A stretch of 64,000 nucleotides of DNA from Thunnus maccoyii. Lineage: Eukaryota > Chordata > Actinopteri > Scombriformes > Scombridae. Made by a program: the position numbers and the translations under genes. Below are positions 9,684 to 62,304 of this stretch, in pieces. The number at the start of each line of letters is the position of its first letter. Position 1 is the stretch's first letter. The stretch lies in assembly GCF_910596095.1 (NCBI RefSeq), contig NC_056540.1, positions 17,758,501 through 17,822,500 on the forward strand. Reading direction: 5' to 3'. Below the pieces are notes generated by a model, which was not told where the DNA came from, ran no database searches, and was given only the letters and a program-made list of their open reading frames with translations.

Positions 9684-12600
9684 TCAAAAGTAAGATTCAG
9701 CATAAGAAGCAGAATGTCTAAGTGTCTGTGAGCCAGTGTTTGCAGGCTGAGGTGCATCAGTGCCGCCTTTCTCTTTTTGCACCTGGAAACTTTTCCCCCT
9801 CGTCTGCGGTTTCTTCCTCTCTTTCTCCCTCTCCTTCTCCAGCTCTTTCTCTCTCTTCTTCCTCAACCTCTCCTCCTCTTTCTCCCTCCTTTCTTGCTCC
9901 CTCCGCCTCCTCCTCCTCTCCCTGGAGGTCAGCTTCTCCTCCTCTTCCTCGACCGGTTTCCCCGTCCCCGTTTGGTCACTGAAGTCCTGAATCAAGATTT
10001 TGGGGACTTGCATTTTGGGTGTCCCCTTTTCTTTGGTTTTTTTGGGCTGCTCTCCTCTCAGTCTGCGGAAGAGACCAAAACGTTTCGGGGGGTCTGGCTG
10101 CCCCGCTTCCTGTTGCGCTGCAGTTGCCTCAGTCACTTCTGTGGACGGAAGCGAAGTCACTTCTGAAGACACATCAGGGGCAGATGAGGTTGGGTTGGGA
10201 GAGTCCGTGTTTTTGACTTGGTCTGGCTGACTGGGGATAGATTGATTAGTTTTCTGCGGGGAGGTGAAGAGATCTTCAGAAAGCCGGCGTGCTAACCTGG
10301 ACCCACGGGAGCTGGACGACTTGCGGATGCGGAAATCACCAGAAGAGTGGCTGCTGGTACGCCCAGAGACTTGTGTCGTACCGCTGTCACTTGGCTCAGT
10401 CTGGTCTTTTGCAAGGTGAGAGTCATCTTTGTTTTGGACCTGTGGGTTGCTGTCGGTATGTGGATCGTCTGTTGGTGGAGAAGAAATGAAAACACAGTCC
10501 TCTCCTGCTGTTTCTTCTTGAAGATCTGTACTTTTCTCTTCCTCTACAGGACCCATCGTGACTTGGCTCTTTGGTTGTTCAGGTGCAGGCTGCACAACAG
10601 CACTTATTTGGACTAAACTCTCCTTCCCATCAGGCTCAGCGGTGAGGTTCAGGCCTGGCTGTGTTGAAGTCTCCTCCTCCTCTGCAGGTGCTGTGGAGTC
10701 TGAAGTCTCCACGTTTGTCTCTGTTGGCATTTCTTCTACTTGTGTTTGATCACAAATACTTGTGTCATTGTCAACCTGTGCCTCTGATGGTACAGTCAAA
10801 ATAATTTCTTCTTTATCCTGCGCAGGTTCAGATCCTGTTGTATCGCTTTCTTTCTCTGAACTTTGAGCGAATGCTTCACTCGTCAGTGTCACTGTCTCAT
10901 CTGCAACTGGTATCTCTGCTTCAGTCTCTGTATCTGCTGCCACGTCGGTGTCTTCTTCATCATGGATGCATTCAGGTGGAGGCGGTGTAATTGTTTCTTT
11001 CTCTGTGTTCGTCTCACTGGGAGGAAGCGTATCGTGTTGTTCTGAATTTGTCTCTATATCAGCCTCAAATTGGTCCTGTGTGTCTTCCTTCTCTTGAGGC
11101 TGTGCCACCACATCAATTTCTGTCTCCGTTTGGGTGTGGGGCTCTTCTTTCATATCTATTTCTGTTAATGACTCACTTCTGTGGTATTTAACTTCAAATG
11201 CACCACCCTGTGAGCTTTTGTCTGTCTCTGTGTCTTGCTGTTGCGTTTCTGTCTCTAATGTTTGATCTGGGTTTGTGACAGTATGAACTTCGACATCACC
11301 GTCTTCCTCTGAGAACACCGTTGTCTCTGGTTTTGTTTGTAGCTCAGCCTCTACTTTTACTTCTGCGACTGCGTCCACCTGTGTCTGTTGCACATTTTCA
11401 GTTTCTGTCCTCTCCTCGGGTTTCACATCAACCTCTGTCCTCAGTTCCACCTGCACCTCCACCTCTTTGTGTCTATCTGCATCTTTCTGTACCTCGGTCT
11501 GATTTTCCTCCACAGCAGCTGTATGTTCACTTTCTGTCACCTGTTCTTCCGTCTCTTCCTTTGTGTCTTTGCCCTCAGTTTCCTGATGTGGGACTTGTGA
11601 TTGGATGTTAGAGTCCAACTCCTCCACATGTTCAGAGGTTTGTTCAGCTGGCTGAGGAACATTTTCAACAAACTGAGCTTCTGCTGGACTTTGGGTTGTT
11701 TCTGTCTCCACGGTTGTGTCTTCTTCTGCTGAGGTTACTGTCTGTTCAGATAGCAACGTCCTTTGTTGGCTTTCCTCCTTTTCCATTTGTTCATCCTGTG
11801 GTTTAACAGGCTCTTTTTCTGTCTCTTCTACATGTTGTGTTGGTATGTTTTGGCTTTCCTCCATCTTTTTGGGGACCTCGAACAGTTCTTTCTGTTCAGT
11901 TTGTCCCGTCAGTTCCGGCTCGCTCTGTTTTTCATGTTCCTCTGAAACAACGTCGTCCTCCTCCTGAACGCCCTGCACCTTCTTAAAATTTAAGTCAGTC
12001 CAGCTTCCCCAGTCCTCCTTTGCTCCCATTGAAAGATGCCTCACAACTTTACCACCCCCTGCCCATTCGTTACCCTTCCCCCCTTTCCTCCACTTCTTGT
12101 GAAGGAGCGAAGGAGACAGCGAGAGGGTGGAGGCCGAGCGAGCCAGAGGGGCAGACAGGTTGCCTTTCTCTCTCTCCTTCCTGTCGCGCTCCTCCTCGCT
12201 GTGTCGAGCCCTCTCCCACGCCATCCGGTATCCCTGGCAGCGACCTCGGGGGTCAAAGGTGGACGAGGGTCTGTCTTTTCTCCACTGTTGTAACGTCTTC
12301 TCTGTCTGCCTCTCCAGATCTCTGGCTGACAGCGTCACCGAGCACACCTGAGACGAGAAGAAAAAAAATTAAAAACACTGGTCTCATTATTGTTTTACTG
12401 TAATTTTCAGAATTTTAGATGATAAACAGTCTTACAGTTGAACAGTATTACCTCATAATTTATGTAGTATTATACATTAAACACATAAAAATGTAATAAA
12501 TCAATAGCTCAGTATGGAAATAATACAAACTGAAGTTATTCACTTTTATGCAATACTTTAAGACTTATTTGCACTGCTGTAAGCTCAAAAAAGGAAAAAC

Positions 12601-32203: not shown

Positions 32204-33717
32204 ATGAAGGACCGATTGGAGCAACTTAAAGCGGTAAGTAGTGTCCAGGAAATATGAAAAAGTGTATTTTTTTTCTGTAATATCTCACTGTACACTTTGA
32301 TGGTCCTCTGAAAAACCTTTCTGTTGGTAGAAATGAGAGGTAAAGACAAGCAAAAAACATTTTCTGAAGCCTTTAATCGAAATACTTGATGCATAATATA
32401 CTAATCATTTGAAACACTTGTCCTATGTGATGACATAACTCAATATAGATGTAGTAACACTGGCGGTTGATTTGAAATTGAAATGTTGAGTAAAAGTGTC
32501 ATTCAGACATAATTTTCAATTTCTATATATGCAGCCATCTTATATGGTGTGACAATCAAGTGTCAGAGTTGTAATAAATGTCATTAATTGAGTTGTATTC
32601 CAAGATGTCATTTTAATAGTCATTTAAAAGGTGTATATTTAAGTTGTTCCCCTGACTATCTATTATTGCTTCCTATAATATGATGTAGGCCTGTGTATAT
32701 ACAAATAGTGACCAGTGTACAGACAACAGATGAATCATTCTGTTTTCATGGTCGCTGATGAATAGTGTCCATTAATTATGAAACAGTCGATCATCTGAAA
32801 ATCAAGCTGGAACAGTTTCGGTAATGGATCAATCGCTGACATAATTTATCAAGCAAAAATGTCAAATATTCTGTGGTTTTAGCCTCTCAAATGTGAGGAT
32901 TTCTGCCTTTCTCTGTCACTGTGAGTTTGATATGTTTGGCTTTTGGATTGTTTTCCAGTCAAAAACAAGTAAACAAGTATTTTCAGAAAATTTTACAGAC
33001 TAAGTGATTAATCAACAATCACGAAAATTAAAAAAAACAAACAAAAACAGACTAATCAATAATGAAAATCTGTTGCAGCACTAGTTGTCAGTACTGCTAG
33101 AAACAAATATGGATATAGAGACATTTGGGGTAGATTGAACCTGGGTCCAAAAACCCAAATCCTCCATATTGTACTTTTTTATTTAGCCAAAACAGTCAGA
33201 TTATCTTGTACATATGGTGGACAGCAGCAGCAGAGTAATCATTAGCAACATAAACCTCAGTTTGATTCATATTTTCCCCTTTTCAACATTGACGTAATGA
33301 CTGTAAATACATTTGCTGTCCATGCGGGTGAGGCCTTGATCTTCTCGTAGCCCAAGTCGGGATGTGTTGCCATAGCTACCCCAAACTACTGGCCAAATAT
33401 TTGCTGTGTTTAAAGTAGCTGAACTGCGGTATCCCCCTCAGGCATCTGTATCTCGCACAGCTGGCTTCTTTTCAGGGAAAGGAAGTACAAATACCAGGTG
33501 AAGTAGGCCTCTCGTTTGTCGGGAAGTTATCAGTATTATTCCGTCAGACCTGTCTGTTGTAATGGGTGTCTCCATCCTAACGGCTTTTTCCAGTCTTTCC
33601 TTCCCTCTTTCTTTATCTTCCTTCCATACCCACACTCAACCCATCATCTTTATTTTCCTCCTCATGTTTCCTCTCTAATGTTTTACTTGCTGGCTGTAAT
33701 CTAGCCTATATATTGGT

Positions 33718-33762
<45 letters not shown>

Positions 33763-36700
33763 TGTGTTTGTGTGTTAGCAGGCATATGTTCATGTGGATG
33801 TGGGCTCATGTGATCACCTGACATATTTTTAGTCTTGGAGAATTTTGGGAAAGAGGTGCAACAGGAAACCCAGAACAGTAGCTTCACCTGGTGCTGTGGT
33901 CATATGTGCTGTTTGAATACACTGGCTTGCTCGGAGCATTTTAGACATAAATATCAACAGCAGAAGTGGATAATTATGCTTGCCGTTTTCTATTACTATG
34001 AGCCAGACTGAATGAGGCCATTAATGTAACAGGAGTTCTCTATTTTCTGCTTTCTCTTCCATTTCCCTCGTAGTATTGTCAAAGTTTCTTTCAGTCAAAG
34101 CCATATCTTTTTCACCTCTGTGTTCAGTGTTTCCCCACAATGTACTGCAGGCCAGTTGGGCCACCTGTATTACTTTACTTCACCACATGGCTCAACATTA
34201 ACACAATGAATGGACAGAATTGTAACGGCTCTAACGAGGCTTCTTCTACGTCACATGAGGATTTTAAATTGTCAGATTTTAGCTATTCTATTAACACAAC
34301 TGCCATTGGAGTAATTTGGATTTTGTCACTATGCTGCCGTAAATCTGATCACATGTCCCTATCCTGACACTGTGATAGCTAGTAGCTCATTTGTTAAATA
34401 TTCTAGGGCTGTAAATAACAATTATTGTTATTCTTGATTAATCGTTTGTCAGAAAAAGGCCTCTCGCAACTTGCTTGTTTTGTCAGAGATATTCAGTTTA
34501 CTATCACATAATACAGTTAAAAGGTAGCAAATCTTCGCAATTGACAAGCTGGAACTATTGAATGTTTAGCAGGAAATGATCCAAATGATTAATTAATCAC
34601 CACAGTAGTTGCCAGTTAACTTTCTGTCAATCGATTAACTGTTTCAGCTTAAGGAAAGTCTACTTTAAATATTATTTTGACTCTGTTTTAGCCCAGTTTA
34701 GTCTTTTTCTGCCCTCATCTTTCTCAACTGTCCTCTTGTCTCAACCTCCAAGGACTGCTGGTGTTCAGTTGAACGTGTTATGTCCGGTGCTGTTTTATGG
34801 TCCTCAGAGACAAAGTCTGACTGTTTATCACCTCCCAGTTTCTTTAAGATGACGAAGTCACGGGAAAGATAAGAGAGCTGGACATGAATCAAGGCCCATG
34901 ATCGGAGTAGAGCTTGCCAGATTGTGTGTACGTGGTTTCGTAAATGATAATAAAGACGTGGAGGTCACTTTAGGCTTATTGCGTGTGTGTATGTGAATGA
35001 AACTGTGTGTGAAGAAAGCCAGTCAGTTGAGGCCGAGGATCACCGTCTGCTTCACTGTACAACCTCTGTCTAGTCATTGCCTTGTTGAGGGGGGATTATG
35101 CAACATGACATGCGGTGCTTTGTATGCAGAACAAGCATAATTAAGTGTTTTGAATAAAAGAAAAAAAGCCTGAATTCAAGCTAACATTCCCATCATTCCT
35201 ACATCGATGTGCGGCGTGCGTGCTGTTTTTTAATCTTGATGTCCAGTTGTCCAAATGTTACTCACTGTTTTGATGATTACACAATATTCGTGTATCTAAG
35301 CACAAGATTATAGCTTTTTGTAGATTTTGGTCCAAAATCTAATTTGCTGCGTCACTGTATCTTTGTGTCAGACACGTTTTTGCACAGTTGCTAAATTTAG
35401 TTTGTTCACAATTTATATATTTGTTATTCAGAAATGGTGATGGGAGTATGGGCGGTATTTTCCCACAGTCATTAGACAGTATTGCAGAAAATAGATAAAG
35501 CAAATCTATGTCTAAAAGTACAAACATTTGATAACTCACTGCTTTCTAAAAACTACAACCAATCACAAATAGTTAAACTGTGCAACTCCCAATATCTATG
35601 TAGAGACCAGAGACAAAAAGAGGTTCATGTGTTTTGAGTAACATTTTGATCCAAAATGTAACGAATGTGTGTTTGGCTCAAGTCTCTGCTCATGTCTTCT
35701 GTCACAGAGAGGCGTCTCCAAGTTTAGTCATAAGATGAGCAAGTGAGTTTAACAAGCAATCTTGTAAAAGTTTTAGATAAAGTCACTCCCTCTGACTATT
35801 TCTGTCAGTATCAAACTGTTTTCTTGCATCAAATTCTTGTGTGTGGCCTTTGACTGTTAAACCATTTGTTACTCATGTCCCTTTCCCCTTATTCTGCTGA
35901 ATGAGAGACACTGGAAGGAAGTGAACGCTCACTCTTATCTCACAACTGCAGAAATGCTGTGTGAGTGAGCATAATGTGTGTGCGAGGGTGCTGTATTCAA
36001 TGAATAATTTACTGAGAAATCCAAACGCAAGCAGTGTGGCAGAGTGTGTGTGTGCGTGTGTGTCCAGGGGAACTGTTGTTAGTACAGCAGCCTGAACCAA
36101 ATAGTCAAGGCCTCATTTGCAATTCAAATTTTAGATGAGGGGTAGAAGGTTAAAGACTGTCCACCAACTCAACAGTTGAACACAAAGAACTAGTAAGTTC
36201 CTTGTCCAAAAGATTGTTGTGCATTGTGTATACCAATTAGAAACCAAGAAACAGTGTACAGTAACTCTATTTGAAAGTTATTAAATAGCTATTGAAGTGC
36301 AGCTTGAATGAAATGTAATATTTAAATACTCATTTAGAAATAAAGGCTGAGTTAAAGGAGTACTGTGACTCACAGAGACCCTGGAGAAGTCTGCTGATAT
36401 CGGAGTGCAGGGAAGTCAACAGGTTTGTTGCCTTGACACCTGACTTTCTCCAGGAAAAGTCAAGTGTGCAGACTTCAGACTCTCAGTCACTCATTGCAAA
36501 ACAGAGACACAGACGCCTACTGTAAACACATTTGTCTGTAAAATGCAGTAATTGCAAGTAATTGAAAGGGAGGGAACAAAGGGAGTTTAATGTCCCTTCT
36601 CACCAGTGTTCAAATTACAGGGAAGCCTTAACTCCCCTTAAAGAGACCGGAGCTCACCTGAAGGCAACAAAATTTTGAGTTTGCAGTGGTCTCAAATAAA

Positions 36701-39645
36701 TAAACATTAGCATTTCTTTTACTGCAATGTCCTGTCATCTGTAATTTTAAATACGTGTGTGCAACTCTGCTTCATGGTCAGTGCGGCTGACTTTATCTTT
36801 TGTCAACAGAGTGTGTAATATGCCTAATCTGGACACGTGCAGGTGTTTTTAATGTGATTCATCCTGTATTATTTTGCATGTCTATGGGTAATTACTGTTT
36901 CTAATATTGATGATTTGGCCTCAGATCAGCGATTCTCAGTTTGGTCAGTGTTTGATCACACGTCAGCCGCAAAAACAAGATTTTCCAAGAAGAATGGATT
37001 TGGAAAACATGTCGTCCCATAGCTAATTTTCCACAAGGTGATAAATAACTTATTTAGAAACAGACCCAAATTTCTCACTATGTAGTGAGTTCAACATTTA
37101 TTTCTCCTTGTAACATGTGGTATTAGAAGTGGATAGCTTCATAAAGTCTCTCTCACTCCCTCCCCTCCTGAAGCTATCCATGCCTCTAACAAGTCCCCCC
37201 CCCTCTCCCCGTAGGGGCTGGACAACATATTAGGAACACTTTTCAATATAATGCACTCCAGTACACCACCAGCACCACCCACTACAACCTCAGTAATAAA
37301 CATAAAGTAGAGTAATCACCTTTCTGACAATGTCAACAAAAACTGAAAATATATCAGCTTCATAAATGTAGAATTTATGGCAGAGCTGTTGTATTAGATT
37401 GTATGAGAGTACACAGGTGTTCCTCCTGTATGTATCACCACCAAAACATTGATCTGACCAGGAAATAAACACAACTTTTAACTGCCTTTGAACTTTAATT
37501 AAAAGCTCTGTGTCAGCTATATGGGCCTTTCAGCAATATGCTGTAGTTTCTGTGGTTTTTGTTATAAGCCACGATGTAATTCAAACACTGTCTCCACCTA
37601 ACACCGTCACAGCACAACGTCATGATGTCTGTTTACACTGTACTTTAGCTGTGGTTTCTTATAATCAATTGAAAGCAGGTTGAGTTCCTGGAGCCTGTCC
37701 CTTGTCCTTCAGCCTGTAAATATTCACCAGCAGTGTGGCCAATCCACTGTTCTACCTCGTGTTTACTGACTGTCCCTCGTGACATATTTATGACCTCAGC
37801 AGAGAAGGAGTTTCTGATAAAATTTATGGGGTGTAGGCTGATCAGGGTCAGAGAAATATTTGTGGCTGGTGTATCATGTTCAGCTGCTAACCAGGAGGCA
37901 ATGTCATTAACATGGCAATCAGTGGTTGTTCATGATTTAAATGCGGTTTAGCAGCATTTCCACACTGATATTCAAAAATGTTAGCTGATGAAAAACTCAG
38001 ATTTGTGAGGCAGTCATAACAAAGTTGATCATTTCAAGGGTGGTTTTGTTTTTGAGATTTAGACCAAGGTGCGTACGAAATCTCAATACTTTTGTGATTT
38101 ACAAACGGAAATGTTTATGGGTTGTCTGATCAGATCCTTAGTTTTGTTTACTTATACTTTTATCAGATATTTTGTGGTTTAAATGATCATTTTTCTATAA
38201 TATGTTCTATAATTTTATAATATCTATAAGCAAAGTTCCTGTACAGATGCTTTCTGTTGAGACATAATTAAACACTGATGCTTTTGATAATTTTGTTGAA
38301 TTATACAAAATCCCCAAATAGCTTTTGTAGGGAAACATGTTTGTATTCCTCAAGTTATAAAAAAAGTATTCTTTTGGTATCAATACTGAAACTGAGGTTT
38401 TGTTAGGCAACTTAACGAAGCATCGAAAGACACAAAACCCATCAAGCACAAAACTGTCTGTCATGTTTTAGCCTCAGGTTAGTTTGTTCAACAGGACGTC
38501 TCTTTAACAACATTGAGTGTATTTATTCAGCTTATTTTTCTGGGTACAAAGCAGTAAATGGTTTACGCTACAACTGTTGAATTGTTATCTATTCTCTAAA
38601 GGCAAGTTAAGTTTGTTTGTATAGCACCAACAAGGTAGTTCAACATGCTTTACGTAAAGAGTTAAAAGACATTACAAGATATAAAAGAAACGTATGGCTG
38701 TATGAAATTACATGTATAAACAGGAATTAAGAAGAGAAAAATGAAGTAGCAGATAAATTATAAATAGCTGCTATACAGGAACACAGAGGTGTTTACTTTG
38801 TGCTTAAGAGAAACATGAGAACCACAAGTACGAGTCTGACACAGTCTTTACTTTTATTCTGTTAGACATGTGATCAAGATGATGACGACGTGGAGATCGC
38901 TGTGGACAACGCAGCCTTCATGGATGAGTTCTTCTGTCAGGTGAGAGGTGTACTCATTTTACTGTTTTTCTTGTATTTACGGTGGCGTACATCGTTCTTA
39001 AGTTTTGTCATTTGCTTACATTTGTGTGCGTATGTTTCAGATTGAGGACATCAGGAACAGTATTGATAAAATTGATGAGAATGTGGCTGAAGTCAAAAAG
39101 CTTTACTCGGTCATCCTGTCTGCTCCCACATCAGATCAGAGTGAGATATCTTTCCACCATTCAACTCTTCTTGTCGTCTTTTTATCTTCCTGTATAATGT
39201 TTGTTGTCTCTTCTATAAATGAATTCAACTATTTCAATATTAAGAATGTTTTCCTCCTCAATAATGTCTCTCTTTCATCAGCTATATTCACTTGCATTTT
39301 TTGTTCTATTAATTGAAGTAAATCTGACAGTTTTCACAAGACAATGAATCAATATGTTACGTCAAGTTTCCTTAAAGCAAGATTATAAATATGCCAATGA
39401 ATGCAGGTTCACTGGTTTGAAAATTTCACAAAAAAGAAGTGATAGTTGTTGGTACATCAATCCTTTGCATCAAAATGTTACTTAACTTGTGAATTTGTGA
39501 ACAACTTAACTTCTCACTGTTTATTGCCACATTTCTCTTCCTTCCCAGAAACACAAGATGACTTGGAGGCAATCACCAATGACATAAAGAAGATGGCCAA
39601 CAATGCGAGAAACAAACTCAAGAGTGAGTGTACCTCTTCCTACCA

Positions 39646-39695
<50 letters not shown>

Positions 39696-42600
39696 CCGTG
39701 CCGTTCAGAATAATGGGGATGTATAACATGAAATGTAACTATAGAATGACACAGTGATGTTTAAGTTGAATCATGATTTATTTTGCTGCTCAGCCATCGA
39801 GAGGAATCTGGAGTCAGAAGAGCAGGAGAGGGTGTCAGCTGACATGCGGATACGTAAATCACAGGTAAATGATGTCCATCTGAAGCTCTTGGACATACCA
39901 AAAATAAATGTGCGATTATTCATTATTCGTTAAATAAACGAGTGAGCACATTGCTCCTCTGCTCATTGAAAATGTTCCTGTTGTCTCCCAGCATGCAGTG
40001 CTGTCCAGGAAGTTTGTGGAGGTAATGACAAAGTATAATGAAGCCCAGGTGGACTTCAGGGAGAGGAGTAAAGGACGGATTCAGAGACAGCTAGAGATTA
40101 GTGAGTGATGCTCACATACAAGTCCACAAACTCATGTCATCATCTTGCGTTTTTTTTTTTTTTTTCATGAACTTACACATGAACCCTTTTCTTTCCTCTC
40201 CAGCTGGAAAAGCAACGACAGATGACGAACTGGAGGAGATGTTGGAGAGCGGCAACGCTGCTGTGTTCACTGCGGGGGTAAGTCTGTGTGTGTTTGTGTG
40301 TGTGTGTGTGTGTGTGTCTGCAGCACCCTAACATCGCCCTTTGACTTGACACTGATCACCATGTGTTCAAAGTGAGAAAACCAAGACCAAGTAAAACTCA
40401 AAACATCATGTGGTTAAAGATTAGCTGTAATGGTGATTTTTGTATGTAGGGCTCAAAGTCAGTTTTCTTTCTTGTGCCTTTTTGGGTCTTCCAACTTTAA
40501 TCTGACATAATATCTAACAGTCAGATCAGATTCTTAAAAAGTTTTAAAGTTGCATGAACGATAAATGAGGTAAATGAGCACCAGCGTGTCTCAGTTGATC
40601 AGACAACCACATTTGCACATTGCATTTAAGCTGGTGAGAAAACTTCTCTGTTAACACTTTTCTGAGAAGGGTGGTTGTTACCAGAATAGCTCCTGAAGAA
40701 TTTCTTTCACAAGGACACACGACTCAAGTTGACATTCTTAGATTTGATAACGACTTATTTTCTCCAATGCCTTTCAGTCTTGTCCTGACATGACCAAACC
40801 TTGACATAAGCTTTAACGGTTAAGGAAATTTGTACTAATATATAATATTTTCCTTGGGTTGTAAACAGGTTTGGCAGAGAGCTACTTTTAACAATGACAG
40901 TATAAAAATATATATGCATCCTGTCAGATTAGATAAATATTGCAATGAGGTTGTATGTCTTGCTTTATCGATTATAATGCTGGATCTAAATACTAATTTA
41001 AAGGTACACTCTGAATATATTAAACCAACAACACTTTTTAAACTCTGATCTATTGTTATTATATATAAATAGACTGCATAGATATATCACTTTTATTCAA
41101 AGCACTTTACAATTTGCCTCTCATTCACACACTCACACACATTCACTCACTGATGGCAGCGAGCTACCATGCAAGCTACTTGGCACAGTCGCCCTCTTAT
41201 ATAAAAACAGGTCTTGGTCAGTGAGCCAACACTGGTTGCCAGGTTTTATAAAAGGAACTGTCATTTCCTTATTAAAGCAGTAGTGTGACTTTCCAATGGG
41301 GGGATTTTATGTTTCTCTGTATAGCAATGAGATGCACTTAATTTCAGTTTCTGTTGTTTGTATTTGTTTGTTAGCTAGCTGCCTTTTCTGCTAAGATGCA
41401 AACTAAATCAGGCCATGACTTATCTCAGCTACAAGGATCAGAAGACAAGATGTTAGATAGGACCAAGTGACAGATGACAAATTGTCATTTAGACACCAAG
41501 ACTCAGATGTGGTAAGACGTTTGTGTGTACATGTCTGTCTGTACTGAACAGTGAACCTCTCCTTTCTGCAGATTGTGGACTCTGGTATTTCCAAACAAGC
41601 CCTGAGTGAGATCGAAGCTCGACACAAAGACATCGTTCGTCTGGAAAGTAGCATCAAGGAGCTGCACGATATGTTTGTAGACATCGCCATGCTGGTGGAG
41701 AGCCAGGTACGCTCCTCTACATCCATCTGCTCATCATTTCATCCATCAATCAGTTAACGGAACCTCAACTACTTTAAAAACTTTTCATTCACTTAATCAA
41801 TTGACTTTCCATTCCCCCTTAACTCTTTCCCTGACTGTATTCAACTCTTTTCTCCTGTTTACTTCACTTGCTGCCTGTGTGGTGTTCTGACTGTCAATCT
41901 GCATCTGTCTTGTGTTTCCTCTTTTTCCAGCTCCATGCCTTTTTCATATCTCCTCTTCCTCTCCTCTGCCTCTGCCACCTCCATCTCATCACCCATCTTT
42001 GATGGACCAACATCAATGCATTGAGTACAATGTGTAAATAAAGCATCAGGGTAGACATCACAGCAGACTTCACACTAGAGTCAAACACATGTTGATCAGT
42101 CAGTCACTGTATGTATGTGCACACACTCAAGTATAACCGCATATTTCTTGCTGCTTGCATCATGCTTTCTGAGGGAAAGCCTCGTTTGAGGTAAGGGCAC
42201 ATTCCTGCTGTTTGTGTTGTGTGATTTCCCAGGAAACTCTTTTCTTGCTATTTTCAGTATTTTTTTTGAAGAGATTTGTTCTAAAATGATTTAATGTTCA
42301 GCATTAATATAAATGCTACTGTCATTAAAGTTAAGGGCACATGAAAGAAAAGCTTCTTTTGGAGTCATTGAAGATTAAGACCTTCAGATAGGATTTCTGT
42401 ATCAGAATATATTTTGTTTTCGAATGAAATCTGTCAAATATGACTTTGTATTGCTTGTTCTGTGTTGCACTGTATCTTACTGATTTGTTGTGTGTTTTTC
42501 AGGGTGACATAATAGACAACATAGAGCAGAATGTATCCAAATCAGTGGACCATATAATAGCTGCTAAGGAACAGACCAAAAAAGCTGTAAGGTACCAGAC

Positions 42601-44607
42601 CAAAGCACGCAAGGTAATGTACTTTAGCCACTTGCCACATCAGTTTGCATGTGACCTCTTCCTGTTTTTTTTTTCCTGCTTATTTCTAGATACAATAAGA
42701 CTTTTTTCACAGTTTGACACATTGAAACCACACAGTGTGCCTACAGATCACACTCCCTTGCCCTATACACACACTGACAATCATGCACAGCTGTTACATT
42801 CTGTGTGCTTCGTCTTTCTGTCTCTCCCTCTTGTTTTATATGTTTACTTTTGTTGCTTTCCGTCACCTCTGACACCGCGCACCACATTAGGGCGGAATGA
42901 TTGACAGGATTGAGAGCAACATGGACCAATCGGTGGGCTTTGTGGAGCGGGCCGTAGCAGACACTAAGAAAGCTGCCAAGTTTCAGCAAGAGGCTCGACG
43001 TGTGAGTGACTACAGTCAAGAATAGCAGTTCGGTTTCCCAAAAGCATGAAAATAGTTTACAATAGAGCTGCGATGAACCTGAATTATGGATATATTACAT
43101 GAAGTGGATACTGGACTGAAAGATGGCGCCTATTCAGTTGAATGAAAACAGCTTCTGCGTTGTACATCCTACTGAATGTGCGCAGTAGTGTTTCCCTGTG
43201 AGTTCCCGCTCGGCCCATAGACTTAACTTTAGGATAACGTGAATTTTTAAATTGCTTTTCAAGGCTCTAGGAAGGTTTTACAAATATAAAACCTTCATGG
43301 ATTAAAAATTCATAATACAAAGAGTAATAATTGACATTATTTTCAGTTTGAGGTGTCCTGTCAACAATTTTACAGACGTCTCTTTTATAATGGTTTATGA
43401 GGAAAATGCTTTTTGGGCTGCAGTTTTTCTTTTTTTTTTTTTTTTTTGCTGCAATACCTCAGGAAATACCACTAGGAAAAAATGGCAGCAAGGCTAAGTA
43501 GCAGCGCTGTATCGGCTCTCTTAATATATCCATGCCCTGAATCAGTGGCATTCAAATTTAAATGGATTTGATAGTATTTTTGCAGTTTCTGGTCTGAACA
43601 CCAAGTTAGCACATGAAAAGTGTGAACGACTGGAATTCCTCTTAAACACAAAGATGCTTTTGGGAAACCTGCCTGACAACTTGAAGACCTCCTCCAGCAT
43701 CAAGACCCTGATCTTCACTTGATCCTTACCTGTGGTGACCCTCGAGCCTTCTGCCTCCTCTGTTCCTGAACCTCCACCCTGTGACCTGTGGATCCCTGTG
43801 CTTAGAAAAACCACTGTGCCCCCCCCCCCCCAAGCACCAAGAACCAGAACATAGACCACCCCATTCCACCTGCTTACACAAACACACACACACTCACAGC
43901 TGCAACACTCTACTCTTTCCTCTCTCTCTCTCTCTGTCTGTGCTGTTCAGTTTTAACCTTAACTTTGTCTTTGTTTACAGTTGGCATATGTCTGCTGCAT
44001 TATTCTTTGGTTTTAGCTGTGTTTGAAGATATTGCTTATTTATTTCAGGCTAGTACAGCATGTGTGTGAAAATAAAGCCTGTATTGACATTTTTACATAA
44101 AGTAAACACCATCGTAAACACTGTTGTGCCAAGAGGAAACTAGTTTATCTGACTGAAGCAACATTGATGCAAGATTAAGTTTATGTGGTTACGAAGCTAC
44201 AAAGAGAATTCTTGTCATTTGATATGTCTGTTCCCTTCATATAAAACTAGTACACATAGTTTATAACACACAGTAGAACATACCATAATCATTGCACATA
44301 AACATAAATTAAAACAGACATAGAAGATACACTTATTGTTGTTTCCCCACTGAGAATGGTCCTGATGGCGCTGTTTGGTTGTTCCCAACAGAAAGTGGTG
44401 ATAATAGTGGTGGTTGTGGTGATCTTGCTGGCACTGCTAGCTCTCATAATCGGTTTGTCAGTTGGATTGAAGCAAAGCTGATGAGCTATTTGAGTAAGAG
44501 GAGAGCTAAGGGTGAGTAACTCCGGAGCAAATAACCTCTGTGCTGCCACAATGGGTATGAGTATGAGGCCTGCTTTTGGAAAAGGGTTTGCACGCTCTTC
44601 TATTAAG

Positions 44608-44643
<36 letters not shown>

Positions 44644-47367
44644 TGTGTATTCTCTCCCCGCAGAGGGCTTATATGAGGTGTGTTTGTGTGTATTTGAAGT
44701 TCCTGGGTGTGTGTTTTTTCTCCTCTCCTGCAGCACTTGCCTCTGGTTAACTGCTGAGCAAACAAAGCAGTGCTAGTGGTGCGCTAGTTTCACAGTTGGA
44801 GGTGGTGTTTGGTCTGTGGGCTCATTTCAATGCTCACCTCCCCTGTCATTAACACTGCTCTCCCTTTGTCTCTCTCTATCTCCCTCTCTGTAGAAGATGA
44901 TCATTATTGGTGCAGTCTGTGCTGTGGCTGTTCTCATCATCCTCACCATCATCCTCACCCAGACACTATAGCAGGACCTCAGTCTTACGAGCATTATGTT
45001 TATTCATCTGTACTCCGTCCCTCCCTCCATCTACCTGCAAACCAAAGAAAAGACTGATAATGATCACTCCGTATGGATGTAATAACATCTCACTCACAGA
45101 TGTACATCTCATCGTTAAGCTAGTAGATAAACGGTGTGAAAAAAGAGGCTCCAGGGGACTCTTTATAAAATCATTTCTGACCCGTGTATACCAATCCAAA
45201 CCATCCTTCCTGGTCTGCCTGGAGCTGTTTGACTCCATCAGGCGGCTTTGGACAGTTTGAGGATGCTCTGCTGCAAATGAGGAAATGAGACTGAGGCTGA
45301 TGTGAGGTACAATACCTATTGTATCTCTTGAGGAAGGGAAAAGGGAATTGAAAAAATATCATAAATGTCACTCAACATTTAATTGTTAAACATTCAGTGC
45401 CAAAGAAACAACCTGTGTTTGTCATCTGAAATTTGTTCTAACGCCCAACCCTCACTATAAGCACATCACCTCCCTTATCTTTACTTCTTGCCTTTATGAG
45501 CCTTGACACATTTTGTGAAAAGCTAGCTATGTTCACTGTACTGGGATTTTGTCGGTTTTTGGGGAGCTCCAGCACTTTGACATTTAGATTATGTCTTCTT
45601 CCTTGGATTAAGCTCAGATGATCATGTAAATAATAGAGCTGTTATTTTGTGTGTTGTCAATATCTAAGCATGATTATGGCTCGGTTCTGTAGCTGAAAAG
45701 AGGAGCTGCGTGTTCAGCTATGATTCTTTTGTGTAGAGAGTGATTTTTAAATGTGAAAGATGCTGCTTATGGAAACACATTTCATGAACAGGTGGAGCTA
45801 AAATAATCAAACAAGCCACAAAAAAAGACAGGATAGGGGGATAAACATGCATACTTTTCTTGAAGACTTTGTCGATACACTGCAACAACAGGAAGACGGA
45901 TCCAAAAAAATCTTCCTACAATGTTAGCCATGATAATGCTTATGTTATGTACTGTCAAAATACTGTAAAATAACAATGTTTCAATACCAAAGGATATAAA
46001 GAGACACAGGTAGTAACACTAGTGACTGAACGTGTTCTCCACAGGTGCCAGAACAGACTTTGTATTTATTATATTTTTTTGATCAGATGTTGCTAATAAA
46101 GTCGCACATATGGGATGCAGTACACACTCCGAACTACAGTAGCTCTAACCTGGCTGCAATTCCTTATGTACATATTTCAGGTTCCATATTTTCTTTACTA
46201 TAAACACAGTTTACAGTTTATTAGATACACGTAGCTAAAACTAATGCAGCCCCTGCTAATAATCCTACCTTAATGAACGGTATAATGTGTAGTTTTTGTT
46301 CAAATTTCATTCAATTTATGGTGAAAGGTGTTTCTAATACTTTGTTTAACCCATTTATATCAATAAGGCTAGACAAGTAATTACAAACACCTTTTAGTGT
46401 AGCACAATACACTTCTACAGCCTCCAAAATGACTATAAAGTTGAATCAACACCTTTCTAGAACAAAACGAACATTATAACCTTCATGGCGGTTGGATTTA
46501 TTGCAGGGCAACTGCATTAGTTTTAGTTAGATGCACCCAATAAGCTTAATTCTGAGTGGTCACCATCATTTCATTACTGTAGGTGTTTTTTGGGAGTGGG
46601 AATGTCTCAAGCTGACAGTGTAATCACTGAAACACACTGTACCGGTAGTCACTCTGGTTTTAATAAGGTCATTAAACCAGGTGACGATAACCCTTGAACA
46701 GTAGCTGAGATACTGTTTCCACTAGTCATCATAAAGAGAAGAGCCTACATGAACCCTCGTAATCTAGATTTTGACCATATATATGAGTAGTGTCTAGAGC
46801 AAAGGCCTAACTGAAAAATGCACCGTGCTTTATGGAGCCACCATCAATGAAAGAAGTCTTTGTTTTTGTTTGACTGGAGCCTGAACGGTGCCTTTTAATT
46901 CTGATTGTGGAGGGAGCACTTGAAAGTGAGAGGCCTCTTGACTTAGCAGTCTGCTCTTTTGGCTTCTGTCCACAACTGTTCAAGTCTGATGCCACTTTTC
47001 AATTTCTTTTCATTCACACCACTTTAGCCATCAGCACAGGCTGTAATGAGAGAGAGACAGAGGAGGAAACTAAAACTGTTGTAGACTGTTTTTAAGTTGA
47101 CGTGCAAATGATTTTAATGGAAATTAAAGATTTTATGTTTTTTAATTTCTGGTTGTAGTGTTTTCTTGCAATGTTTTTTTTTTTTTTTTTTTAGCATGTT
47201 TGACCTGCTGACCTTTGTTAGTTTTTTTTTTTTTTAATGGGATAAAAGCTGTTGTCAGCAGATGATCTTTGCACTAAGGAAGACTGTTGATACAGCATTT
47301 TAACCACTGTGTTTACAAGACTGTCAAAGAGGAGGTAAGTTATATGTTTTCACCTTTTCTTCCTCTT

Positions 47368-47426
<59 letters not shown>

Positions 47427-47640
47427 CTCTCCGAGCCTTGGTTCTCCTTTTGCTCAACCATTTCCTCAAACCGGTGTCCATAAATGTAAACAATTATCTT
47501 GTGTTTGGCTGCATTGTGTTCAGACTGCTCTCATTCTGTTTTACTCTTGATTAAATCCACAGAAAAAGATGATGATTACATTGTGCTGTGCCATCATTGG
47601 GATCGTTGGGTTCTCCTATCTCTACAGCTTCTTCTCATAA
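32204..47640 (+). CDS. stx3: Syntaxin 3 with alternative SNARE and membrane-anchor exons
   Basis: Syntaxin 3 is a Qa-SNARE of the plasma membrane. It drives apical exocytosis and, as the 3B form, release at retinal ribbon synapses. Constitutive coding exons: 32204-32233, 38866-38940, 39041-39140, 39549-39623, 39794-39864, 39992-40100, 40204-40277, 41572-41706 (669 nt, residues 1-223). They start [10 protein letters not shown] and cover the Habc domain and the first half of the SNARE helix. The zero-layer Gln is in LVESQ, the last codon of exon 8. Two alternative 111-nt exons follow (42503-42613 and 42891-43001), then three alternative terminal exons (44392-44481, 44894-44971, 47563-47640), each encoding a hydrophobic anchor and a stop. 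The STX3A-like path gives 289 aa, equal to human STX3. The 3B-like path gives 285 aa. Intron 1 is 6.6 kb. Confidence 0.95.
32785..33092. repeat. GATTAAT-type dispersed repeat
   Basis: This repeat lies in stx3 intron 1. One end has ACAGTCGATCATCTGAAAAT and the other AATCAATAATGAAAATCTGT then TGCAGCAC. The middle contains CTCAAATGTGAGGATTTCTG and TTTACAGACTAAGTGATTAA. Confidence 0.6.
33721..33776. repeat. (TG)n microsatellite
   Basis: A nearly pure TG run of about 20 units, ending in TGTGTGTT variants, in stx3 intron 1. Confidence 0.95.
34403..34660. repeat. GATTAAT-type dispersed repeat
   Basis: Its ends are AGGGCTGTAAATAACAATTA with TTGATTAATCGTTTGTCAGA, and TGTCAATCGATTAACTGTTT with CAGCTT. 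It lies in stx3 intron 1 and is somewhat shorter than the other copies. Confidence 0.6.
37131..37179. repeat. 10-bp inverted repeat
   Basis: GGATAGCTTC at 37131-37140 and GAAGCTATCC at 37170-37179 are exact reverse complements with a pyrimidine-rich 29-nt loop. The outer bases (TTAGA and TCTAA) also pair. Stx3 intron 1. Confidence 0.7.
38599..38720. repeat. Probable fish LINE/SINE-related fragment
   Basis: The words GGCAAGTTAAGTTTGTTTGT, ATAGCACCAACAAGG and CAACATGCTTTACGTAAAGA follow a pattern I recall from many fish genomes. Only one copy is visible here, so the call rests on memory. Confidence 0.4.
39647..39697. repeat. (AC)n microsatellite
   Basis: A long AC run with one GC interruption, starting about 25 bp after the donor of stx3 exon 4. 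Confidence 0.95.
41060..41200. repeat. Probable fish interspersed repeat fragment
   Basis: The words CACTTTTATTCAAAGCACTT, CATTCACTCACTGATGGCAG and CGAGCTACCATGCAAGCTAC match a repeat I recall as widespread in teleosts. It lies in stx3 intron 7. Confidence 0.45.
42503..42613 (+). CDS. stx3: stx3 alternative exon 9a (STX3A-type SNARE half)
   Basis: This exon of 37 codons has a TTTTTCAG acceptor and a GTAATG donor. It reads [18 protein letters not shown] and ends [11 protein letters not shown]. This is the layer +1 to +8 half of the Qa-SNARE helix in its epithelial STX3A version. It joins in frame to any of the three terminal exons. Confidence 0.9.
42891..43001 (+). CDS. stx3: stx3 alternative exon 9b (STX3B-type SNARE half)
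   Basis: This exon has exactly the same length as exon 9a (111 nt) and lies 277 bp after it. It encodes a homologous segment, [18 protein letters not shown], ending AKFQQEARR. The [18 protein letters not shown] block is what I recall as the retinal STX3B version. Using both exons would keep frame but insert 37 residues into the SNARE helix, so they are presumably mutually exclusive. Confidence 0.9.
44392..44481 (+). CDS. stx3: stx3 terminal exon A (STX3A-type anchor)
   Basis: The acceptor is CCCAACAG. It encodes a Val/Ile/Leu-rich segment of about 25 residues, then [12 protein letters not shown] and TGA. The GLSVGL ending matches mammalian STX3A. Confidence 0.9.
   Translation, partial: KVVIIVVVVVILLALLALIIGLSVGLKQS
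44609..44652. repeat. (GT)n microsatellite between stx3 terminal exons A and B
   Basis: A nearly pure GT run of about 20 units lying between two alternative terminal exons. Confidence 0.95.
44894..44971 (+). CDS. stx3: stx3 terminal exon B (third membrane anchor)
   Basis: The acceptor is CTCTCTGTAG. Its 25 codons begin [17 protein letters not shown] and end TQTL and TAG. The frame follows either 9a or 9b. Length and hydrophobicity fit a syntaxin tail anchor, but the sequence matches neither the 3A nor the 3B ending. It is closer in style to syntaxin 2-like anchors. Confidence 0.7.
   Translation, partial: KMIIIGAVCAVAVLIILTIILTQTL
46095..46100 (+). terminator. stx3 internal polyadenylation signal
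   Basis: An AATAAA hexamer lies about 1.1 kb after terminal exon B and 1.5 kb before terminal exon C. It is the likely 3' end for transcripts ending in exon A or B. Confidence 0.6.
46217..46544. mobile_element. Palindromic-end MITE-like element
   Basis: The left end TTTATTAGATACACGTAGCT and AAAACTAATGCAG (46217-46249) is inverted at the right end as CTGCATTAGTTTTAGTTAGA and TGCACCCAATAA (46512-46543). The element is about 330 bp with no coding frame, located between stx3 terminal exons B and C. Confidence 0.75.
47370..47422. repeat. (CA)n microsatellite
   Basis: A pure CA run of about 26 units, about 140 bp before the acceptor of stx3 terminal exon C. Confidence 0.95.
47563..47640 (+). CDS. 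stx3: stx3 terminal exon C (STX3B/STX1-type anchor)
   Basis: The acceptor is AAATCCACAG. It encodes [17 protein letters not shown] and ends YSFFS and TAA. The ARR ending of exon 9b followed by KKMMITLCC matches the syntaxin 1/3B membrane junction, so 9b plus C is the natural 3B form. Confidence 0.85.
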   Translation, partial: KKMMITLCCAIIGIVGFSYLYSFFS

Positions 47641-47963
47641 AAGCTTTTACAGAAGGTAAAACACCTTGATCGGCGTTCAACATTATGTATTTTGTTCTTG
47701 CACCTTAAATGTTAAAATAATATATATATATATATTTTGTCTTTGTGTGGTGTTTCCAGTAAAGAGGATTTCTCCAAGAAAAAGATGTTCTTGAGGTGCT
47801 CCACCTATTTCCACCCTGACTTATTTGAATCTATTTTAAAACTTGTAAAGTAAAAAAAAAAAAAAAAAAAAGGTGATCCTTATCTGGTCCTGTGCACTTC
47901 CCTTTCTATTTATCATTTGAATTAAATTAATTTTCTTGCTGTATGAAGTGTTTGATAACGTGT

Positions 47964-47969
47964 AATAAA
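47964..47969 (+). terminator. stx3 distal polyadenylation signal
   Basis: An AATAAA hexamer lies about 325 bp after the exon C stop. Further AATAAA copies near 48206 and 48390 could serve longer UTRs. Confidence 0.6.
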
Positions 47970-49207
47970 TGTCTAGATTCTTCTCAGTCTGCCAGCTCAC
48001 AACCAGGTGGCTCCTCATGGACTTTTAATCATTTTTGGACCACTATACCGCCTCCTGGTGGTGCATTGAGGGGACAATCATATTTAGTGATATTGTAAGA
48101 ATCAGGAAATTATTAAACATTTAGTAAGATGTTGAAGATGTTTTTTTTTGTGCTGTCTAGGCTTTAAAAGTCCATTTATGCACTTACAAACAGCTGTGCT
48201 CTGGTAATAAAAATCTCCATTTAAGTAGTATTTTCTGACTTGTTTGTTGTCACAAATGTATTAAACTGTGTGATTTTGTTGTGTGTGATCTGTCTGTATG
48301 CGTCTGTGCTGCTGAAATGCTTGTAATGATGGTCTTTTCTGCAACAGAAGCTCACTGGCTGTGTGTCAACCCAGTAAAGCTTGTTATGTAATAAATGATT
48401 TCTGTGCGTTGTACCAAGTGTTGGTGTGTGCTTCGTTTCTTGGACGTGGTTCAGCTTCTCACTGGATGCCTACAACCCTACAATTACCGCAACTTGTGAC
48501 TCTCTGAGCATAAAATGTTATTCGTCCCTTTTCTTTACCCATGTGTGAAAGCCACAGCTAATGCATGGCGATGTGCAACATTAACATCCGTGTATGGAGA
48601 GCTCCCCTGACCTCATTTCATCCCCCATCTTCTTCCTATCCAGAGGCAGGCCCGGCCCATCAGCACGACGAGGGCGGAGTCTACATAAGGGTGCGCTCGT
48701 TTTCATCTTCGTGTTTGGAAGATAAGCAGGATTTCCAGCTGGGCAGTGAAACGAAAGGACAAAACTTTATTGATTCATAGGAGGGAAATTTACTAAAAAT
48801 GATTTACCAATAATGCAGTTTTATGTTATTCCAGATCAATCGATCTAAAGTGACAGAAAATAATAACAAAAATAACAAAATATTTGTATTATGTATAAGG
48901 TGTATTCATACATAATAACTACACCAATATAATATGAACATGAACATCCTATGAACAAATAATAATAATAACTATTTTAGTAATAGCAGTGAAAAAATAA
49001 GAATAATTGTAATAGATATAAAAAGTAATAAGATTAATACTTAAATATATTGTCAAAGAGGAAGAAGGTGAAATAATTAAGTAAAAAAACAGCTAACAAT
49101 TGGCATTACCATCATCATTACAATAATTATAATTAAAATTCAAAACTTAAGCAGAGGTGTACATAGTAAGACAAAACATAGAGCCATAGTGTGATATATA
49201 TTACATC

Positions 49208-50703: not shown

Positions 50704-62304
<11,601 letters not shown>

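Follow-up and report, generated by a model that had tools for sequence, protein, structure and literature searches.

The presence of two alternative exons for one half of a SNARE helix and of three membrane-anchor frames in a single syntaxin gene raises the question whether such a set is a peculiarity of that gene or an old possession of its family. The gene is stx3 of Thunnus maccoyii. It was analyzed in a stretch of 64,000 nucleotides from contig NC_056540.1 (positions 17,758,501 to 17,822,500, forward strand; here called the window, on contig C8), and paralogues were sought in the same assembly (782 Mb). The window probably holds the 3' alternative cassette of teleost stx3, an old unit of which stx3 would have kept every part and its relatives different subsets.

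The exons were located by tblastn with a human STX3 sequence as query, and all of them lie on the plus strand. The coding part of exon 1 (32204-32233) was found by tblastn and ends in the donor GCG/gtaagt. Exon 2 (38866-38940) was delimited by its open frame and AG/GT borders. Open frame and splice borders likewise delimited exon 3 (39041-39140), exon 4 (39549-39623), exon 5 (39794-39864), exon 6 (39992-40100) and exon 7 (40204-40277). Exon 8 (41572-41706; tblastn and open frame) encodes the N-terminal half of the SNARE helix, and its last residue is the zero-layer Gln (LVESQ). Joined through canonical GT donors and AG acceptors, exons 1 to 8 (32204-41706) give an open frame of 669 nt with the end IAMLVESQ. 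Pfam Syntaxin (PF00804) and SNARE (PF05739) domains were above cut-off in 9a+A and 9b+C, the two joins scanned out of six. The predicted stx3 products are composed of Habc, a Qa-SNARE and a C-terminal anchor. In the tree of the common exons, the window gene paired with a gene on contig C2 (99/96). The pair stood beside human STX3 (87/87) and was not grouped with STX1, STX2 or STX4. By this placement the window gene is assigned to teleost stx3, the name given to it in an earlier note made from the sequence alone.

Exon 8 is directly followed, after the zero-layer Gln, by two exons for the C-terminal half of the SNARE helix. Each is 111 nt long and in phase 0, with 277 nt between them. Acceptors were scored by an in-house matrix of splice-site frequencies, and their percentiles are relative to the AGs of the window. 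Exon 9a (42503-42613), detected by tblastn, is of STX3A type and has its acceptor at the 98.7th and its donor at the 97.9th percentile. Exon 9b (42891-43001) is STX3B/STX1-like, ends in EARR and has an acceptor at the 48.1st percentile. The two share 58/111 nucleotides and 16/37 amino acids, which confirms the homologous pair of the earlier note in coordinates, lengths and frames. The position of the switch agrees with PMC9183232, where STX3A and STX3B share their sequence as far as layer 0 and diverge beyond it; Habc is left untouched. Compared with human exon sequences taken from the probes printed in PMC8263458, 9b is identical to human 9B at 32/37 residues, while 9a matches human 9A less clearly (21/37). 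As in STX3B, 9b+C reads EARRKK and carries a CC pair in the anchor, and the closest solved chain to it is syntaxin-1A (E 3.7e-20). The pair corresponds to the mammalian STX3A/STX3B switch, as had been proposed. All six joins of an exon 9 with an anchor are open (285 or 289 aa), which bears out the predicted six products as far as frame is concerned. However, joining both 9a and 9b to A, or neither of them, also leaves open frames, so frame does not enforce mutual exclusion.

Three anchor exons follow, all joining in phase 0 with Lys as the first residue. Exon A (44392-44511; coding 44392-44481, stop 44479-44481) is an STX3A-type anchor, resembles human 10A and stx2 A, contains no cysteine and has a probable donor at 44512. 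Exon B (44894-46115; coding 44894-44971, stop 44969-44971) is a third anchor with one cysteine and a probable 3' end, placed approximately, after an AATAAA at 46095. Exon C (47563-47655; coding 47563-47640, stop 47638-47640) is of STX3B/STX1 type with two adjacent cysteines, resembles human 10B and the fish stx1 anchors, and has a probable donor at 47656. Exon D (47760-47985, end approximate) is probably a 3' untranslated region (UTR) exon, with an acceptor at the 97.0th percentile and an AATAAA at 47964. The donor 30 nt past the A stop (AAGG/gtgagta) and that 15 nt past the C stop (GAAG/gtaaaac) are at the 99.6th and 97.5th percentile of 4140 GTs. Donors as strong as these were found in 17 and 102 of 2127 bins of 30 nt, respectively. 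The stx2 A exon also has a donor 24 nt past its stop (95.8th percentile). In the anchors of stx1a, stx1b and stx4 and in stx2 B, no donor in the first 60 nt past the stop exceeds the 78th percentile. The good donors past A and C together with the acceptor at 47760 suggest that A and C are probably non-terminal and that only B is terminal. Of the three terminal anchor exons earlier described, the three anchors stand and the terminal position is probably true of B only. A further AATAAA is present at 44071, within the 9b-A intron and about 320 nt upstream of exon A; intronic polyadenylation at this site would give an anchorless form.

Exon 8 matches 10 places in the assembly. The analysis covers seven of these loci (C8, C2, C6, C18, C9, C19 and C20); the other three are long single frames, on C16 and C17. 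The names of the paralogues are provisional and follow from comparison with human sequences, and stx1a and stx1b were told apart on anchor tails only. The window gene contains 9a, 9b, A, B and C. Its duplicate (C2) contains only 9b and C, stx1a (C6) a second exon 9 named 9a' (GELVNNIERSVVGAQEYVEQAKESIPKCKKFKKTGKR) with 9b, B and C, stx1b (C18) 9b and C, and stx2 (C9) 9a, A and B. The stx4 gene (C20) has one exon 9 and one anchor. In a second stx2-like gene (C19), exon 9 lacks a GT donor and a clear anchor is missing. Across these loci the order is always 9a-9b-A-B-C; stx1a has its further anchor exon between 9b and C, and stx2 has one after its A. Exon 9b of the stx3 duplicate is identical to that of the window at 36/37 amino acids and 92/111 nucleotides, and its introns measure 591 and 690 nt. 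No remnant of 9a was seen in the intron of the duplicate (score 17 against a mean of 22.9 for 40 shuffles).

Two of the paralogues deserve separate description. The 9a' exon of stx1a (L010:4959-5069) has good splice sites and encodes N231, N232, R235, V238, K248 and E249, which are all six STX2-directed changes of STX1A in PMC10957171. It has Ile at layer +7 with an adjoining Pro, and Cys at +8. Such an exon could end the SNARE helix early and is possibly a fusion-impaired form of syntaxin-1 or a relic. In the stx2-like gene (L026, 10852024-10852125, minus strand) AT stands in place of GT after exon 9, and no clear anchor exon was found in the stretch scanned; it is possibly a decaying duplicate.

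The distribution of exons is best explained by a cassette that probably goes back to the common ancestor of stx1, stx2 and stx3. We somewhat favor the stronger form of this view, in which a single STX1/2/3 ancestor already had the 2x3 cassette and the genes arose by keeping different exons. Under it, stx3 would have kept the whole cassette and remained the splicing version, syntaxin-1 would have fixed mainly 9b with C, and syntaxin-2 9a with A and B. The teleost stx3 duplicate, by keeping only 9b and C, would have repeated the process, and splice forms would have turned into genes on two occasions. What supports an old cassette is the shared content and order, the likeness of the A and C anchors and the second exon 9 of stx1a, and not the tree. 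In comparisons with shuffled sequences, the z-score was 7.7-8.5 between window A and stx2 A, 4.5-5.9 between window A and human 10A, 1.9-3.3 between stx2 A and human 10A, and 5.8-13.3 among C types. By these scores anchor classes A and C are clear at the sequence level.

Several observations weigh against this ancestry. The best exon-9 trees put window 9a, human 9A, stx2, the C19 gene and stx1a 9a' together (61/79 for protein, 74/92 for DNA), and the best protein tree put stx3 9b with stx1 (69/83), but the support of 61/79 and 69/83 is weak. Window 9a is identical to stx2 at 22/37 residues and, only slightly less, to the stx1 exons at 20-21/37. The B exons of stx3, stx1a and stx2 are alike only weakly (z 0.9-2.9), and the stx4 anchor gives a higher score with stx1a B (z 4.5-5.5); the homology of the B exons therefore rests on their position. 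In a rival reading, the exon pair was duplicated within stx3 alone; 9a would then resemble stx2, and 9b stx1, by convergence, and the extra exon of stx1a would be independent. A clade of the stx3 exons only was not rejected by the approximately unbiased (AU) test (p 0.114 for protein, 0.236 for DNA). Human 9A is equally near to human 9B and to fish 9a (21/37 each); with the stx1 exons it shares 24-27/37, but with fish stx2 only 17/37. Opposed to this are the best trees, low as their support is, and the strong likeness of window A to stx2 A and of window C to the stx1 anchors. Moreover, stx1a 9a' is nearer to stx2 exon 9 (16/37) than to its neighbor 9b (12/37), and it carries the STX2-type residue at each of the six surface positions. 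An origin within stx3 alone is on balance unlikely, though it is the strongest competitor of the ancestral cassette.

The anchor nature of B was weighed against an unlikely alternative, that B is never used as an anchor and serves the A form solely as a 3'-UTR exon, like human 11A, with a hydrophobic frame which is chance or relic. The strong donor 30 nt past the A stop would suit this, as would human STX3, where 11A comes after 10A and the 9A-11A join gives the soluble STX3S. However, B is in phase 0, begins with Lys, has an acceptor at the 98.9th percentile and exceeds C in hydropathy (3.18 vs 2.22). Chance was gauged by a filter combining an AG acceptor with pyrimidines, a K/R start, a hydrophobic run and a stop, applied to 488,000 nt, counting both strands, from the window and six further loci. 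It gave 20 rows at 18 acceptors, of which 10 were anchors where they had been expected, spread over six of the seven loci. The other 8 acceptors lay elsewhere, about 1 per 61 kb, which makes B unlikely to be chance; the anchors were already known when the filter was set, so that the control is a rough one only. Anchor exons at comparable places in stx2 and stx1a, and the two anchors made by mouse Stx2 (PMC4946901), also argue for B as an anchor.

Between the two stx3 copies, exon 9b has 17.0 synonymous changes in 23.3 sites and 2.0 non-synonymous changes in 87.7. The corresponding values are 20.8 in 26.2 and 11.2 in 108.8 for exon 8, and 9.7 in 14.5 and 19.3 in 60.5 for anchor C. Among the three, constraint is highest in 9b and lowest in C, and 9b has been kept under constraint in both copies. 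Anchor C, with only 12/25 amino acids identical between the copies, does not speak for a cassette maintained whole. A division of labor after duplication, with the C2 gene doing the STX3B job and window 9b and C as leftovers with decaying splice sites, would fit the retention of only 9b and C with strong acceptors in C2, the weak 9b acceptor of the window and its loosely constrained C, but is improbable, as 9b shows near-saturated synonymous and almost no non-synonymous divergence, is tighter than exon 8, and has an intact donor in the window.

For the old cassette kept by stx3, we infer the following use. Constant exons 1 to 8 would be joined to one of 9a and 9b for the helix past layer 0 and then to one of three anchors. 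By default, 9a would probably be joined to A, B then serving as 3' UTR; if A is skipped, 9a would be joined to B. The likely retinal programme would be 9b to C to UTR exon D. As the 9b acceptor is weak, and that of C mildly so, the latter would need activation. Among the stx3 acceptors, 11/13 are at or above the 95.2nd percentile, and the exceptions are 9b (48.1) and C (87.3). In the C2 copy the acceptors of 9b (98.7) and C (98.8) are strong. The two acceptors are thus strong where they are the sole choice; under competition, as in the window, that of 9b is clearly weak and that of C mildly so. Against this reasoning, sub-par acceptors also occur at the sole exon 9 of stx1b (86.4), at stx1a 9b (91.6) and at exon 8 of C2 (92.7), and a weak acceptor by itself proves little. 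Nor was anything distinctive seen at 9b or C when UAG, UGU, pyrimidine tracts and AG-free stretches were scanned.

Regulatory signals were searched around the alternative exons. The 150 nt upstream of 9a reach a UGU count seen in 2.6% of scanning windows. Between A and B there is a (TG)16 run (44610-44641), a candidate control site for CELF (UGUGUGUG) near the alternative exons, but the plus strand of the window has four runs of at least 8 units in all. These UGU signals are a lead only. A Musashi (UAG) cluster after 9b, with 3 per 100 nt, was dropped because 8.5% of scanning windows match it. A distant branch point or PTB site at 9b was also rejected, since its AG-free zone of 98 nt is comparable to the 90-102 nt at exon 4, 9a, B and D; PTB words were dropped as well, being more numerous in B and C2 exon 8. 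Ten inverted-repeat pairs were found as candidates for an RNA pairing that would enforce mutual exclusion, and the best one lies entirely within the 9b-A intron. Pairs I3, I5 and I6, candidates at most, would link different introns by 13-16 nt at 81-92%. Perfect 16-nt inverted-repeat arms are present at 43032-43047 and 43654-43669, the first 30 nt past the 9b donor, and 43002-43700 (699 nt) folds better than 20/20 shuffles (z -2.98). The segment 43032-43669 looks like a foldback element.

For the effect on the protein, layer positions are given in syntaxin-1A numbering. In layers +1 to +8, 6/8 residues are the same in 9a and 9b, the exceptions being +3 (Val/Met) and +5 (Ile/Val), while 19/29 non-layer positions of exon 9 differ. 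The switch would thus mainly alter the helix surface and the juxtamembrane segment, and the suggestion of the earlier note that it tunes SNARE zippering through the layers is not supported. Positions 232, 248 and 249 are N, K and E in 9a (STX2-type) and R, V and A in 9b (STX1-type or near). In PMC10957171, R232, V248 and S249 of STX1A were changed to N, K and E, towards STX2, and helix-surface residues of this kind were tied to priming, clamping and Munc18-1. The position matching syntaxin-1A K260 is Lys in 9a and Glu in 9b, and the residue at this position together with the anchor cysteines controls anchor palmitoylation and release (PMC9183232). With core layers scarcely altered, the switch would act on the helix surface, the K260-matching residue and the anchor cysteines. 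More plausibly, then, it tunes regulators and anchor palmitoylation rather than core zippering. The 9a+C product (Lys with two Cys) is predicted to be palmitoylated and release-active and the 9b+C product (Glu with two Cys) much less so, which, if true, would explain why the choices of exon 9 and anchor might need coupling.

Elsewhere in the window, frames for a CXXC zinc finger and an F-box occur downstream of stx3 (57390-60873, plus strand), presumably of a kdm2a-type gene. An open frame of 887 aa on the minus strand (9687-12347), rich in Glu, Thr and Gln by eye, gave no Pfam match at E 0.001.

If the pattern among the paralogues is true, it would explain how a single STX3 gene can serve at the ribbon synapse, in the manner of syntaxin-1, and also as a general epithelial syntaxin. 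It would also be a case, within one genome, of alternative splicing becoming gene specialization. The two-exon switch of STX3 is already known; anchor B and the family pattern in this genome are added here. Within the topic searches made, and only there, no paper joined STX3 with homologous mutually exclusive exons, syntaxin exon duplication with subfunctionalization and alternative splicing, or syntaxin 2/epimorphin with splice isoforms of the transmembrane domain. No fish stx3 gene structure was found in the available parts of PMC7606922, PMC8263458 and PMC11119284.

Human and mouse STX3 are the nearest known systems. Exons 9A, 9B, 10A, 10B, 11A and 11B are described in human STX3, with a known 9A/9B and 10A/10B switch (PMC8263458, PMC9183232). 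They share with the fish gene the switch point after layer 0, the 111-nt exons 9, anchors of STX3A and STX3B type and additional exons (11A, 11B) past the anchor exons, and the A-B/C-D layout of the fish resembles 10A-11A/10B-11B. The fish gene differs in its third anchor frame B; human 11A encodes the short soluble tail (KLISLQTGVATLVFR) of the 9A-11A form STX3S (PMC8263458). Another difference is the K260 position, which is Lys in fish 9a and Gln in human 9A. STX3B reads EARRKK, and in neurons the change of its Glu to Lys is an on-switch; STX3A is without anchor cysteines (PMC9183232). Reads across 8/9B and 9B/10B are far more numerous in human retina than those across 8/9A, 9A/10A and 9A/11A; that study counted matched junctions only (9A/10A, 9A/11A, 9B/10B), and cross junctions of 9A/10B type had no probes (PMC8263458). 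Both forms are cited for goldfish retina, with STX3B seven times higher (PMC11119284). Mouse Stx2 makes two alternative C-terminal anchors in dependence on CELF2 (PMC4946901). The stx2 gene of this fish similarly has anchor exons A and B but differs from the window gene in its single exon 9 and in the absence of a C anchor from the 30 kb examined. In Caenorhabditis elegans, exons 8a/8b of the syntaxin-1 gene unc-64 encode alternative anchors regulated by UNC-75/CELF (PMC4946901); in this invertebrate the anchor changes alone and the SNARE half does not. Anchor switching in unc-64 and mouse Stx2 (PMC4946901) shows the choice of anchor to be an old habit of the family.

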